Source: a virus. From it: DNA of 36,070 bases. Where the stretch lies: positions 1-36,070 of IMG/VR virus record IMGVR_UViG_3300018049_000064, one strand, 5' to 3'. Numbering within the stretch: position 1 is the first letter of the stretch; the number at the start of each line of letters is the position of its first letter. Below the pieces are notes generated by a model, which saw only the letters and a program-made list of their open reading frames with translations, ran no database searches and was not told where the DNA came from. The translations under genes and the position numbers were made by a program. Positions 3,973-35,521 of this stretch are shown piece after piece.

Positions 3973-5126
3973 GTAAAAGATTTAATTTCGGCGGAATATT
4001 GGGATCAAAAAGAGTTACGGGAGGCTTTAGTACAGGAGGATACCTAGGGCAAAAAGATCCTGGAATATATTCACTTAGAGCTTTAGCAGGGTTACATAAA
4101 CGGTGGGCAGCGCCGGCAATAGATGCATTTGATTTTTATTTAACATCAGCAGGCGCTGCAACGACAACAACATTACAAACTGGACCAACGACTGCTCAAA
4201 TAACAAGTCAAAGCGTACCAGCTGGTACTCTAGGTGGATCAAATGGTTATCAAGAATGGACAGTACCTGCAGCAGGTAATTATAGATTTACTTTAGAAGG
4301 AGCCAGAGGAGGTGTTTCTATAGCAACTAGCGCGTCCCGTGCAGCAATTAGCGGATGGAATCATTTTTCACCTGCTTCTAACCCTTCACAAAAAAGATGT
4401 GCTAGGGGCGCAAAAGTTCAAGGAGTAGTTAGTCTAAATGCTGGTGATGTTATTACTGTTCTTGTAGGTCAACAAGGAGCAGATGATCCAGGTAATGGTC
4501 AAAATCCAAGTGGAGGAGGTGGTACCTTTGTCTCTCTTGGTACTAAAGCTCAAGTGGAAGCTGGAAGTGATAATTTATTGTTTGCAGCTGGTGGTGCCGG
4601 TGGTTATGCTGGAGATGGTGGATCAGATAATTATACAGCTGGCGAAGGGCAATCAACAAATACAAATTCGAATGGCAATAGTGGAGCTAATGGATCGGTA
4701 GGAAATGGCGCTGCGCAGGCTACCAGTGACGGTAACTCTGGCGGAGGAGGAGGCTATCTTACTAATAGTTCGAATGGCAGTACTATAAACTTTACTGATA
4801 TTGAATTAACTGGACGTATAGCATATGGGTTTAGAAGAGGAGGACATGGCGCTGAACACACTTCTGGTTCTAATGATCAAGGAGGATTTGGTGGAGGTGG
4901 AGCAGGATCATCACAAACTGGTCTTGATGATGATAAAGGCGGCGGCGGTGGATATTCCGGTGGTGCTTATGCTTTTGATGCGTTTTCTTTTGGTGGAGGA
5001 GGTGGATCTTATGCTAATCCAGCCGCAACTAGTACAACTTTAACTAGAGGCGGAGCTCAATATAATAATGGTGCAACTGGTGTTTCTGAAGGAAATGGAA
5101 GTGTTTACATAGAATTTGGTTTTTAG
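3969..5126 (+). CDS. Glycine-rich adhesin-like tail protein (ALK-type Gly-rich domain)
   Basis: 385 residues. The frame extends upstream to 3873, but the ATG at 3969, forming an ATGA overlap with the previous stop, is the natural start (MSKRFNFGG). After an N-terminal attachment-like region (1-75), a segment EWTVPAAGNYRFTLEGARGG is followed by long glycine tracts (GGGG) alternating with short variable loops, and a LLFAAGGAGG stretch. This is the pattern of the glycine-rich domain seen in ALK-type proteins and many phage tail proteins. Polyglycine sandwiches form the receptor-binding tip of some T4-like adhesins (gp38 type). Host recognition is therefore a reasonable inference, supported by the adjacent second glycine-rich protein. 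Confidence 0.7.
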   Translation: MSKRFNFGGILGSKRVTGGFSTGGYLGQKDPGIYSLRALAGLHKRWAAPAIDAFDFYLTSAGAATTTTLQTGPTTAQITSQSVPAGTLGGSNGYQEWTVPAAGNYRFTLEGARGGVSIATSASRAAISGWNHFSPASNPSQKRCARGAKVQGVVSLNAGDVITVLVGQQGADDPGNGQNPSGGGGTFVSLGTKAQVEAGSDNLLFAAGGAGGYAGDGGSDNYTAGEGQSTNTNSNGNSGANGSVGNGAAQATSDGNSGGGGGYLTNSSNGSTINFTDIELTGRIAYGFRRGGHGAEHTSGSNDQGGFGGGGAGSSQTGLDDDKGGGGGYSGGAYAFDAFSFGGGGGSYANPAATSTTLTRGGAQYNNGATGVSEGNGSVYIEFGF

Positions 5127-31875: not shown

Positions 31876-32289
31876 GTGGATTGTTTAATAGTAGTTGATG
31901 CATGGAAACAACTTAAAGATTATGATTTAGAAAAATATCCTTGGTTAAGTGATGAAACTACTTCTTTTGGAAAATACTTAAATACACAATTAAAACATAT
32001 TGATTGTGACATATTTAAGTATACTAAATACGATGAAGAACTTATGGATGAGATAACGGTTGGCAAACAAATAAATGAAATCCCTGAAGGTTATAATTAT
32101 TATTACTTTTGTGGATTTCATTTAGGAAGATGTATTCCAAAATTAACTCAAAACATAGAAAATTCTGGATGTGTTTTAAACTTAAGTCTTTTATTTCCTG
32201 AAGATTCTTTTGAATCAAAAAAACAAATGGACAAATATTTTTATTATAGTTATGCTAAAGGATTCGAACATATTAGCTTTGTGGCATGA
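31876..32289 (+). CDS. Possible isochorismatase-like (cysteine hydrolase fold) protein
   Basis: 137 residues, GTG start touching the regA stop. A LIVVDAWK strand puts an Asp (D8) at the place typical of the isochorismatase/cysteine hydrolase fold (usually LxxIDxQ), and YYFCGFHLGRCIPKLTQNIENSG puts a Cys (C86) in the GxxxxxC context of the catalytic cysteine, followed by a strand. The lysine of the triad is not clear (K51 or K64 possible), and the protein is shorter than usual (about 180). It might instead be an unrelated alpha/beta protein. It overlaps the next gene. Confidence 0.45.
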   Translation: MDCLIVVDAWKQLKDYDLEKYPWLSDETTSFGKYLNTQLKHIDCDIFKYTKYDEELMDEITVGKQINEIPEGYNYYYFCGFHLGRCIPKLTQNIENSGCVLNLSLLFPEDSFESKKQMDKYFYYSYAKGFEHISFVA

Positions 32290-33502
32290 TTACAAATCAC
32301 CTTTATATGATTTAAAAACACAAGACGAAATTGATTATGAAATAAGAGAACAGTTTCGTTATAAAAACTGGTCCATACAATATAAATCAATTGAGGATGA
32401 GCTTGACTCAAATAACAAAAATATAATTTTAATACCATGGGTAGTAATTCATGAACTTGAAAACATTACTCTGTGGTTAGAAAAACATTTTACTCCATCA
32501 TTAATACAATTCATTTTCTCTCGCTATATTGAGGTTGGCGTTATTTGGTGTTTAGAAGTTATTCCAGAAAACAGTTCTATAGTTAATGATATAATAAATT
32601 TCTTTAGAAAACATGATATTGATCATCACTTAAGTTTTTATGATAACCGTTATTCACTAGAAAGCGTAGAGCCACATATAAAAAAATATTTTAAATTATC
32701 TAAAACTAAAAATAGAATGTTGCCTAGATATAATTGGAATCATGATTATTATCTTAAAAGAACATTTAAAGATAGTCATCCTAATCTAGCAAAAAAAGTA
32801 TGTTATGTCATAGGAAAAGCAAGTTCCAACGAATTTAGAATTTTATCTATGCTTGAAGCATCTCGTAGAAATATTTTAAATCATGAAGATACTTTCTTTA
32901 CATTATGTGCAGACCAACCTGATACACCAATAGAAAATTATTTAGAAGATGTAAGAATAAAATTAAATAGTTTTATAAAAGAAACACCAGAACAATATAG
33001 AAGCTATTATTATGAAATTTTAAATAACAATTTATTATTTAAAGAAGTGTTTAAAATTAGACAAGTAGATAGGAATGGAAATACTGTTAAAGTGAATAGA
33101 GCTAATATTGATCAGTATGCCTCTTTTCCACAAACTGATTTAGCTTTATTGAATGTTTCTATAGAAACCAGACCATATGCAAATTCATTAACAGAAAAAA
33201 CATTAAAACATTTGAAGCATGGTAAACCTTTTTTAGTATTTGCAAAAATGGGAACAATGAAGTATCTTCAAGATGAAGGATACAAATTATATGATTGGAT
33301 AGATTATTCTTACGATAATATAGAAAATCATTACGAAAGATTTTATGCGCTCTTTGACGAAGTTGAAAGATTAGTTTATATGGATGATATGGATACAACT
33401 TTCGGTTATGATAAAAAAACACTAATGGTTAATGAACACAATAAAATGATATACCAACAAAAAGTAGTAGAGATGATAAACAATTCTGAAACTTTTTGGT
33501 AA
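32252..33502 (+). CDS. Unrecognised 416-residue protein, glycosyltransferase-like C-terminal pattern
   Basis: The frame opens at TTG 32210, but ATG 32252 is the first standard start; TTG 32279 would reduce the overlap with the previous gene from 38 to 11 bases, and no start has a good ribosome binding site. The N-terminal 270 residues are unrecognised, alpha/beta in pattern. About residues 325-400 contain VSIETRPYANSLTEKTLKHLKHGKPFLVF, then MKYLQDEGYKLYDWIDYSYD. This EKT...GKPF...YL...G pattern recurs in uncharacterised phage and bacterial proteins linked with glycan synthesis and resembles the acceptor half of GT-B enzymes; the function is not established. It is the last gene of the replication operon. 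Confidence 0.6.
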   Translation: MLKDSNILALWHDYKSPLYDLKTQDEIDYEIREQFRYKNWSIQYKSIEDELDSNNKNIILIPWVVIHELENITLWLEKHFTPSLIQFIFSRYIEVGVIWCLEVIPENSSIVNDIINFFRKHDIDHHLSFYDNRYSLESVEPHIKKYFKLSKTKNRMLPRYNWNHDYYLKRTFKDSHPNLAKKVCYVIGKASSNEFRILSMLEASRRNILNHEDTFFTLCADQPDTPIENYLEDVRIKLNSFIKETPEQYRSYYYEILNNNLLFKEVFKIRQVDRNGNTVKVNRANIDQYASFPQTDLALLNVSIETRPYANSLTEKTLKHLKHGKPFLVFAKMGTMKYLQDEGYKLYDWIDYSYDNIENHYERFYALFDEVERLVYMDDMDTTFGYDKKTLMVNEHNKMIYQQKVVEMINNSETFW

Positions 33503-33545: not shown

Positions 33546-33553
33546 TATAAATA
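33546..33553 (+). promoter_or_regulatory. T4-type late promoter (TATAAATA) for hsp20
   Basis: A perfect late box in the 110-base gap, 59 bases before the hsp20 ATG. Transcription would start about 33559-33562, at the base of a hairpin. Confidence 0.8.
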
Positions 33554-33558
33554 CTATC

Positions 33559-33580
33559 GGAGTGCGGATAGTCCGGCTCC
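33559..33580 (+). other. 5'-leader hairpin of the hsp20 transcript
   Basis: GGAGT pairs with GCTCC (one T-G pair) and CGGA with TCCG around loop TAG, with a single bulged G. The hairpin would stand at the very 5' end of an mRNA from the late promoter just upstream, where such structures can block decay. Confidence 0.5.
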
Positions 33581-33612
33581 ATTTAATCTTGCTTGATCAA
33601 AAGGAGATAACA

Positions 33613-34086
33613 ATGACAGGCTTACAACAACTTTTTCCCCGTTCATCTTTTGTAGGATTCGATCATCTATTCAATGAACTTGAATGGACAGCAAAACATG
33701 CGAATGATCATTATCCACCTCACAATATTATTAAAGTAGGTGAAAGTGACTATTTAATTGAACTTGCAATTGCTGGATTTTCGAAAGACGAACTTTCTGT
33801 AGAAGTTAAAGATCGTACTTTAACTGTGGCTGGGGATCACAAGTCAAGAGGTCGTGAATTTATTCATCGTGGTATTTCTACCAAGAAGTTTAAACGCACG
33901 TTCCGGCTGTCTGAGCACGTACAAGTGCACGGAGCAGATATTCAGGATGGTATTCTTGCAATTGAATTGAAGTACGTCATCCCTGAAGAAATGCGTCCTC
34001 GTAAAATTAACATTGGAAAATTTAACGAGGTCGAAAATGACACAACACATACTGACAATAAGCAACTACTTACGGAATCCGATTGA
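33613..34086 (+). CDS. hsp20: Small heat shock protein Hsp20
   Basis: 157 residues. An in-frame GTG at 33562 lies within the leader hairpin; ATG 33613 with AAGGAGA (33601-33607) is the start. The alpha-crystallin domain spans about residues 35-135: YLIELAIAGFSKDELSVEVKDRTLTVAG, then FKRTFRLSEHVQV and the closing GILAIELKYVIPEE. Hsp20 is nearly universal in cyanophages and found in other marine T4-like phages. It is a chaperone holding unfolded proteins, perhaps in capsid assembly or host stress. Late promoter and position before small alphaproteobacterial-type genes are notable. The C-terminus overlaps the next gene by 50 bases. Confidence 0.93.
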   Translation: MTGLQQLFPRSSFVGFDHLFNELEWTAKHANDHYPPHNIIKVGESDYLIELAIAGFSKDELSVEVKDRTLTVAGDHKSRGREFIHRGISTKKFKRTFRLSEHVQVHGADIQDGILAIELKYVIPEEMRPRKINIGKFNEVENDTTHTDNKQLLTESD

Positions 34087-34276
34087 AAGTCTTTTGGATT
34101 TCTTCAAAACTTGGAATTCTTATGTAAAACGCCAAAGGCAATACAAAGATACCGTAAAAGAATTAAGTAGATTGACAGATGCAGAATTGAATGACATTGG
34201 TATAAATAGAGGTGATATTAGATCTATTGCCCGCGCTGATGTAGACATGAATCCTAATCTAAGAGGATGGGTGTAA
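34037..34276 (+). CDS. DUF1127 domain protein
   Basis: 79 residues. The frame allows TTG at 34013, but ATG 34037 with GAGG at 34027-34030 fits better. The C-terminal half, YKDTVKELSRLTDAELNDIGINRGDI, is the DUF1127 motif (arginine-rich helix, L-S-x-L-x-D-x-x-L-x-D-I-G-I-x-R-x-x-I). DUF1127 proteins are small, abundant in Alphaproteobacteria, and have been linked to RNA turnover and phosphate or stress regulation. This one is overlapped with hsp20 and coupled by TAATG to the next gene. A phage could use it to act on host RNA or metabolism; this is inference. It strongly hints at the host group. Confidence 0.8.
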   Translation: MTQHILTISNYLRNPIESLLDFFKTWNSYVKRQRQYKDTVKELSRLTDAELNDIGINRGDIRSIARADVDMNPNLRGWV

Positions 34277-34458
34277 TGTTCTATGTTGAAAGCGTTACTA
34301 TTGGTCGTCGTTCTATTATCTCCAGAATCTGGCAGGGGATTCAAAATACCTGTGAGATTATTGGATACAGCAGAGCAGCATCACATTTAGCTTCACTTGG
34401 TTATCATGAAGAAGCTAAAAATTGTATGATGGAAATTGCAAAGCTAAAGAAAAGCTGA
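34276..34458 (+). CDS. Small protein coupled to the DUF1127 gene
   Basis: 60 residues. ATG 34267 is in frame, but AAGAGG at 34261-34266 is spaced for ATG 34276, which overlaps the DUF1127 stop by one base. The first part (TIGRRSIISRIWQGIQN) is basic and amphipathic; the second (SRAASHLASLGYHEEAKNCMMEIAKL) is helical and reminiscent of short host proteins beside DUF1127 domains, though I cannot name the family. Function unknown; probably acts with the DUF1127 protein. Confidence 0.65.
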   Translation: MFYVESVTIGRRSIISRIWQGIQNTCEIIGYSRAASHLASLGYHEEAKNCMMEIAKLKKS

Positions 34459-34474
34459 CAGAAAAATCACAGCG

Positions 34475-34495
34475 GAGGGGCTGTCATGGCCCCTC
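34475..34495 (+). terminator. GC-rich stem-loop after the DUF1127 partner
   Basis: GAGGGGC (34475-34481) pairs perfectly with GCCCCTC (34489-34495), loop of seven. It is preceded by AGCG exactly as in the gp19/gp20 stem-loop. There is no T-run, so it could be a weak terminator or RNA processing/stability element. Confidence 0.45.
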
Positions 34496-35195: not shown

Positions 35196-35207
35196 TAAAT
35201 GCATTTA
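35196..35207 (+). repeat. Perfect 12-base palindrome before the terminator
   Basis: TAAATGCATTTA reads the same on both strands and directly precedes the GGGGG stem of the terminator. Its TGCATTTA half also appears just before the promoter at 34789. Confidence 0.4.
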
Positions 35208-35231
35208 GGGGGTTTACAAACCCCCTTTTTT
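35208..35231 (+). terminator. Intrinsic terminator with TTTACA in its stem-loop
   Basis: GGGGGTT (35208-35214) pairs with AACCCCC (35219-35225), loop TACA, followed by six T. It ends the transcript of the 113-residue gene. The hairpin contains TTTACA, the -35 sequence of this phage's early promoters, and TAGTAT lies at 35231-35236, but with only 12 bases between them. Confidence 0.8.
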
Positions 35232-35267: not shown

Positions 35268-35483
35268 ATGACTTACGTTCTAATATCGGATATCGCCTAT
35301 ACTTCAACTAAATCAGAAATCAAACAATTCGCAAAAGAACATGGGTGTGCACTTTCACTATTCCAAACAAACGGACCAGGTGGTGGAAATCATGTGTGTA
35401 CTTTCACATCTAACAACTTAGATTATATCCAAGAATTATGCGATCAACTACAACTACCCCACTCAAAAATATTAACATCATAA
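35268..35483 (+). CDS. Unrecognised 71-residue protein
   Basis: 71 residues. The frame is open from 35199 across the terminator, but ATG 35268 with AAAGGAGAA is the real start. The protein has an alternating alpha/beta pattern (TYVLISDIAYTSTKSEIKQFAKEHGC, then HVCTFTSNNLDYIQELCDQL) like a small ferredoxin-like or ACT-like fold, with a GPGGGNH loop. I do not recognise a family. It lies alone between two repeated hairpin/promoter modules just before gp43. Confidence 0.65.
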   Translation: MTYVLISDIAYTSTKSEIKQFAKEHGCALSLFQTNGPGGGNHVCTFTSNNLDYIQELCDQLQLPHSKILTS

Positions 35484-35488
35484 ATAAA

Positions 35489-35504
35489 GGGGTTTACAAA
35501 CCCC
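35489..35504 (+). other. Hairpin carrying the gp43 -35 box
   Basis: GGGGTTT and AAACCCC form a perfect inverted repeat around AC. It is nearly identical to the terminator hairpin at 35208 but is followed by AAAAA instead of T. The -35 box TTTACA (35493-35498) lies within it, so a regulatory rather than terminating role is likely. Confidence 0.55.
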
Positions 35505-35521
35505 CAAAAATATGGTAGAAT
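35493..35521 (+). promoter_or_regulatory. Host-sigma-type early promoter of gp43
   Basis: TTTACA (35493-35498), a 17-base spacer ending TATGG, then TAGAAT (35516-35521). The start codon follows 24 bases later. A TATAAATC (35521-35528) overlaps the -10 region, only one base from a late box, so dual use is possible. Confidence 0.75.

Follow-up and report, generated by a model that had tools for sequence, protein, structure and literature searches.

Organization of the hsp20-DUF1127-partner cassette

The window, a 36,070-nt stretch of viral DNA (positions 1 to 36,070 of IMG/VR record IMGVR_UViG_3300018049_000064), carries three overlapping genes coding for a small heat-shock protein, a DUF1127 protein and a 60-residue protein that we call the partner (Table 1). 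The 50-base overlap and the TAATG coupling described in the first-pass annotation were exact to the nucleotide: the DUF1127 frame opens with an ATG at 34037 inside the hsp20 frame, overlaps it by exactly 50 nt up to the hsp20 stop at 34086, and ends with a TAA at 34276 that is fused to the partner start (TAATG, 34274-34278). An apparent 5' extension of DUF1127 in some loci was rejected as the start, since it falls in another frame at the end of hsp20. The G+C-rich hairpin that follows the partner is a possible transcript end or stabiliser; no + strand intrinsic terminator was listed at that position after the partner stop.

Table 1. Features of the cassette, in window coordinates
Feature	Position	Strand	Evidence or remark
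T4-type late promoter motif TATAAATA	33546..33553	+	67 nt 5' of the hsp20 ATG
ROSE-like two-hairpin leader of hsp20	33556..33618	+	Subthreshold Rfam ROSE_3 match, covariation, shuffle comparison
hsp20, small heat-shock protein, 157 aa	33613..34086	+	PF00011 E 2.6e-16; phrog_432 5.3e-35; nearest NCBIfam model IbpA
DUF1127 gene, 79 aa	34037..34276	+	PF06568 E 7.8e-14; phrog_26566 1.9e-10
C-terminal tail of DUF1127, NPNLRGWV	34250..34273	+	AGA GGA codons (34262-34267) are the partner's Shine-Dalgarno
Partner gene, 60 aa, new phage family	34276..34458	+	Profile searches; no family above cut-off
G+C-rich hairpin directly 3' of the partner stop	34475..34495	+	z -3.0; + strand without T run

The identification of the source as a T4-like phage was confirmed by PHROG matches to structural and replication proteins in the window (portal, major head protein, tail sheath, clamp, clamp loader subunits, RegA and the start of the DNA polymerase). 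Replication genes surround the cassette, which is located within the module 45-44-62-regA-...-43. By its portal, the closest GenBank phage is C48C1 (62.7% identity), followed at ~55% by Pelagibacter phage Mosig, a cyanophage and Methylophilales phage Melnitz. No tRNA or tmRNA genes were found in the window. Between RegA and hsp20 there is a 430-aa frame (32210-33502) that matched no PHROG family, and 5' of the DNA polymerase a small ORF ending at 35483 is flanked by terminator-like hairpins of the GGGGGTTT type (35207-35226 and 35488-35505).

The DUF1127 protein

Assignment of the 79-residue protein to DUF1127 was borne out by an HMM search, in which PF06568 scored 51.6 bits against a curated Pfam cut-off of 23.3. 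AlphaFold predicted a long helix (residues 3-45) followed by two shorter ones (48-53 and 58-69) with a mean pLDDT of 76. With the small DUF1127 proteins of bacteria (A. tumefaciens SDP1-3, E. coli and Salmonella YjiS, R. sphaeroides CcaF1) the phage protein shares the PF06568 domain with its ELxxLTDxELNDIGIxRGDI core, small size and, by overall charge, a basic character. It differs from them in a longer N-terminal helix, an NxNL[KR]G[WF]V tail, a lower arginine share and a co-encoded partner. The core of the window protein contains 11.5% arginine and has a net charge of +2. The cores of paired phage proteins average 9.3% arginine compared to 15.5% in cellular ones, with equal K+R content (0.188 vs 0.187) and a mean net charge of +2.0 vs +2.4. 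PHROG 26566, a phage family of unknown function, matches the window protein over the DUF1127 core; neither the partner family nor the pairing is recorded in PHROGs. Structure searches with the models of DUF1127 and partner returned short-helix matches only, none of them significant, and sequence searches of the PDB gave no credible match.

The partner family and the two-gene module

A DUF1127 protein scan of viral contigs and a scan with a partner profile each yielded 80 loci, in overlapping sets. Local profile searches gave 54 distinct partners, distinctness being defined by the last 45 residues, and 53 of these could be judged for their neighbourhood (flank present or neighbour found). In all 53, a DUF1127 gene adjoins the partner. 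The survey of gene order that the first-pass annotation called for found the order of the window in 45 of the 54 distinct relatives, with hsp20 directly upstream of and overlapping DUF1127. In the remaining relatives the pair is mostly located elsewhere, and a few loci are cut by contig ends; pairs without adjacent hsp20 are found in L044, L046-L049, L097, L137, L147 and L155. The order is reversed once, partner before DUF1127 and again with a 1-nt overlap, in the cultured OM43 phage Melnitz. Because the pair occurs in two gene orders and in contexts without adjacent hsp20, we regard the pair, not the trio, as the unit, and judged by its sequences DUF1127 and its 60-aa neighbour are one conserved two-gene module. 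Both small genes are under purifying selection, with dN clearly below dS in comparisons with several relatives (dN/dS about 0.1-0.4 where measurable). The recurring three-gene order together with these values indicates a cassette conserved beyond chance.

The closest described counterpart is genes 45-46 of Melnitz, a hypothetical protein and a DUF1127 protein. The first is homologous to the partner (46.7% over 45 aa), the DUF1127 core is 65.5% identical to that of the window over 29 aa, and the stop/start overlap of 1 nt is common to both phages. Melnitz differs in that the order is reversed, the pair lies downstream of nucleotide-reductase genes and hsp20 is elsewhere. The Melnitz genome paper does not mention DUF1127 (PMC9004378).

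In Pfam, PHROG and NCBIfam no family matched the partner above threshold, and as delimited by our profile searches it is a new, previously unnamed family of 54 distinct sequences. AlphaFold predicted a two-helix hairpin (helices 15-41 and 44-59, mean pLDDT 80.5), and the partner has an invariant face with the residues G-Y-x-R-A-A / K-x-C-M. Two relationships were considered and rejected. A tetratricopeptide repeat (TPR_8 E 0.049, 14.3 vs 25.7 bits; best E 2.4e-4 among 20 members) is resembled by the C-terminal helix pair only, and a diverged copy of DUF1127 received an hhalign probability of 3.6%.

The partner appears to be confined to phages, going by its distribution: it was found in 0 of 693 sampled cellular genomes (295 from a single family, 398 from the phylum), using a profile that does recover known positives, and in 84,980 species genomes a strict pattern scan confirmed no relative. 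With the profile, the partner was located in one metagenome-assembled genome, Rhodobacteraceae bacterium Water_Bin34, of which at least contig L156 is plainly phage, with clamp loader, DNA polymerase and hsp20. Several contigs of this assembly carry the phage-type pair (L156, L159, L160).

A second group of phage DUF1127 genes (loci L051-L080 and L050) has no partner and often lies directly 5' of ribonucleotide reductase (tested in L053 and L075) or thyX (tested in L050), and most of its members form a supported tree cluster of their own. Since this group has its own neighbours and cluster, phage DUF1127 genes occur in at least two settings, of which the partner marks one.

The slot after hsp20 seems to hold varied small overlapping genes. 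In cyanophage syn9, gp169 (L199 1365-1565) likewise shares exactly 50 nt with the end of hsp20; by eye it is unrelated, and it has a membrane-spanning appearance.

Coupling through the DUF1127 tail

Wherever the partner occurs in this gene order, a purine-rich Shine-Dalgarno of the AAAGGA or AGAGGA type lies inside the DUF1127 tail, just 5' of the partner ATG. In most loci the tail follows the consensus NxNL[KR]G[WF]V, and the purine-rich stretch is provided by the [KR]-G codons. The tail doubles as the Shine-Dalgarno of the partner. The tail seems to be selected as protein also, because the N-x-N positions vary synonymously. One clade has SLKRGVN instead and keeps the Shine-Dalgarno. Locus L026, which retains hsp20-DUF1127, has neither partner nor tail, and Melnitz, in which the partner comes first, is without the NxNL part.

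ROSE-like leader and late promoter motif upstream of hsp20

Of 49 distinct leaders, whose median gapless identity is 39%, 41 carry the octamer TATAAATA, the T4 late promoter consensus, at -62 to -73, compared to 3.8% expected per region under a Markov model. Most leaders without the exact octamer show close variants. Over the whole window its count does not exceed chance (10 vs 7.05); significance is confined to its constant placement 5' of hsp20. Despite the location in the replication module, this conserved position supports the earlier description of the genes as a late cassette. The motif was not found just upstream of pairs without hsp20, and for that reason we do not claim late timing for them.

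Between the motif and hsp20, the leader in the window is predicted to form hairpin I (GGAG-TG-CGGA-TAG-TCCG-G-CTCC), followed by UUGCU facing the AAGGAG Shine-Dalgarno. Across relatives the UG/G internal loop of hairpin I is constant and the stems are variable, with four pairs showing double changes in RNAalifold; the hairpin is more stable than shuffles in 37 of 43 leaders. CUUGCUU facing AAGGAG is invariant in all 32 aligned leaders. The top Rfam match in the cassette region was ROSE_3 (RF02523) at 22.8 bits, below the gathering score of 43. In relatives, among them C48C1 and, with the best score, Melnitz (34.1 bits, E 9.5e-4), ROSE_3 matched at the corresponding position with 22-34 bits.

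The short ROSE-like thermometers of Pseudomonas ibpA have a U(U/C)GCU motif and two hairpins (PMC3669281). With these and with Rfam ROSE_3 the phage leader shares two hairpins, UUGCU facing the Shine-Dalgarno and an ibpA-like hsp20 directly after, and the ROSE_3 anatomy, UYGCU opposite the hsp20 Shine-Dalgarno behind a stable hairpin, was present. The phage leader differs from them in scoring below the Rfam gathering score and in standing behind a phage late promoter motif; in many phage hsp20 leaders with UYGCU facing the Shine-Dalgarno, the T4 late promoter motif is found 5'. Melting was predicted by ViennaRNA for the L139 leader and not for that of the window, under a model without the G-G pair of ROSE. 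We hypothesise that the hsp20 leader senses temperature, and the presence of such leaders before phage hsp20 genes suggests that phages may regulate chaperone genes by RNA thermometers; in the literature searched we found no paper on an RNA thermometer of a phage hsp20.

ROSE-like hsp20 leaders were also observed in Melnitz (L197, about 1393-1455), C48C1 (L083, about 4924-4991), L199 and L198. By eye, cyanophage syn9 (L199) and pelagiphage HTVC115P have UCGCU at the same place before hsp20.

Host of the phage

The DUF1127 family is commonest in Alphaproteobacteria, and the first-pass annotation had taken the gene as a predictor of the host group. As a predictor the gene proved weak, although other evidence leans to Alphaproteobacteria. 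A phylogeny from 52 usable columns left the window protein unplaced among alphaproteobacterial and other phage sequences, E. coli also holds a PF06568 protein, and the only cultured phage with both genes, Melnitz, has as its host OM43, which PMC9004378 assigns to Gammaproteobacteria. The same paper argues that the tRNAs and tmRNA of Melnitz are common to SAR11-type lineages, so we do not count Melnitz as strong counter-evidence on the host. On the other side, 36 of 37 cellular matches, obtained with a narrow pattern, are alphaproteobacterial by title. DUF1127 also occurs in cultured roseophages and Sinorhizobium phages, and one phage contig that holds all three genes was binned with a Rhodobacteraceae metagenome-assembled genome. 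Alpha-type permuted tmRNA is present in pair-bearing contigs (L014 1-158, L027 3501-3866, L137 6106-6449, L155 6905-7308); a two-piece phage tmRNA was already known from Melnitz (PMC9004378). Taken on genomic grounds, an alphaproteobacterial host is likely.

The DUF1127 gene of Rhodobacteraceae SB2 (L162 3977-4225) encodes a phage-like tail, NPNLVGAV, and groups with the phage copies at starred tree support; its contig neighbourhood includes sugar-metabolism genes and a transposase match. The gene may have been exchanged between phage and host.

What the pair may do

The pair probably lets this marine phage re-tune host regulatory machinery. The action on host RNA or phosphate response that the first-pass annotation proposed may apply, and it has parallels in bacterial DUF1127 proteins that bind RNA or PhoR (PMC12501420). 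Starting from what can be read in the DNA (the genes, their coupling, pairing and selection, and the conservation of promoter motif and leader), we infer a single mRNA, a protein complex, a target, an effect and late timing in vivo. In our leading reading, to which we give roughly one chance in three, the DUF1127 protein is an adaptor that docks on a PhoR-like host sensor kinase with its dedicated helical partner. One mRNA and coupled translation would supply the two proteins in roughly equal amounts, and late in infection they would assemble into a small helical complex. The DUF1127 part might then dock on a host sensor kinase like its bacterial relatives, with PhoR the best documented target, and the helix hairpin of the partner might stabilise or redirect it, shifting host nutrient signalling to the advantage of the phage; these last two steps are the least certain.

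Kinase binding was reported for the A. tumefaciens DUF1127 proteins and E. coli YjiS, with PhoR bound in both species and with cross-species complementation; SsrA binding was reported for YjiS, and the basic charge was proposed to bind an acidic region of PhoR (PMC12501420). The phage domain keeps the core and this basic charge. The PF06568 match, the pairing in 53 of 53 cases, the two gene orders, purifying selection and the conserved late motif all favour the kinase adaptor. Against it stand the partnerless phage copies beside ribonucleotide reductase or thyX, which imply that the domain can act without the partner, and L026, which has lost neither hsp20 nor DUF1127 and is without partner and tail. 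Cellular DUF1127 restrains phosphate uptake; the benefit to a phage is not obvious, and no Pho gene was found in the examined part of the genome.

Close behind the kinase adaptor, and likewise tentative, comes an RNA-binding regulator: DUF1127 would bind host or phage RNA, with the partner aiding binding or selection late in infection. The basic domain is conserved, regA, which codes for a translational repressor, is close to the cassette, and CcaF1 of Rhodobacter sphaeroides binds RNA and alters mRNA stability, as summarised in PMC12501420. However, arginine is lower in the phage domains (0.093 vs 0.155), though total K+R is equal, and for Salmonella YjiS there is no evidence of RNA binding. 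Whether DUF1127 acts by kinase or RNA binding is disputed for these small, widespread regulators, and a phage DUF1127 with an obligate partner kept in two gene orders offers a direct handle on the binding target of the domain. Should the complex indeed act on PhoR or host RNA, nutrient signalling in the host would be open to control by marine phages through a new route. We consider it doubtful, as a whole, that DUF1127 and its phage-only helix-hairpin partner are a dedicated complex modulating host signalling (sensor kinases or RNA) and are also made with Hsp20 from a late mRNA whose ROSE-type thermometer leader would couple host control and chaperone supply to temperature.

It is unlikely that the partner is instead an antagonist or delivery factor that sequesters phage and host DUF1127 and so blocks host regulators rather than imitating them. 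Obligate pairing would fit, as would the absence of the partner from sampled bacterial genomes (positive control found) and the several DUF1127 copies that cellular genomes often hold, but a pure inhibitor would need no adjacent DUF1127 copy, and neither protein matched a toxin-antitoxin family or the defence-system library. Slightly less likely again is an assembly helper, with the pair acting on behalf of the virion or of the chaperone Hsp20 and DUF1127 being only a small helical scaffold. The late promoter motif and the position directly 3' of hsp20 in 45 of 54 relatives speak for such a role; several relatives, however, have the pair far from hsp20 without a late motif just upstream, and in Melnitz it follows nucleotide-reductase genes, far from hsp20. 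A neutral passenger, in which drift would have maintained a host gene taken up together with its neighbour, is already disfavoured and very improbable: hypothetical small genes in the slot do differ between phages (syn9 gp169, C48C1), but both genes are under purifying selection and the pair is widely distributed in independent contexts.
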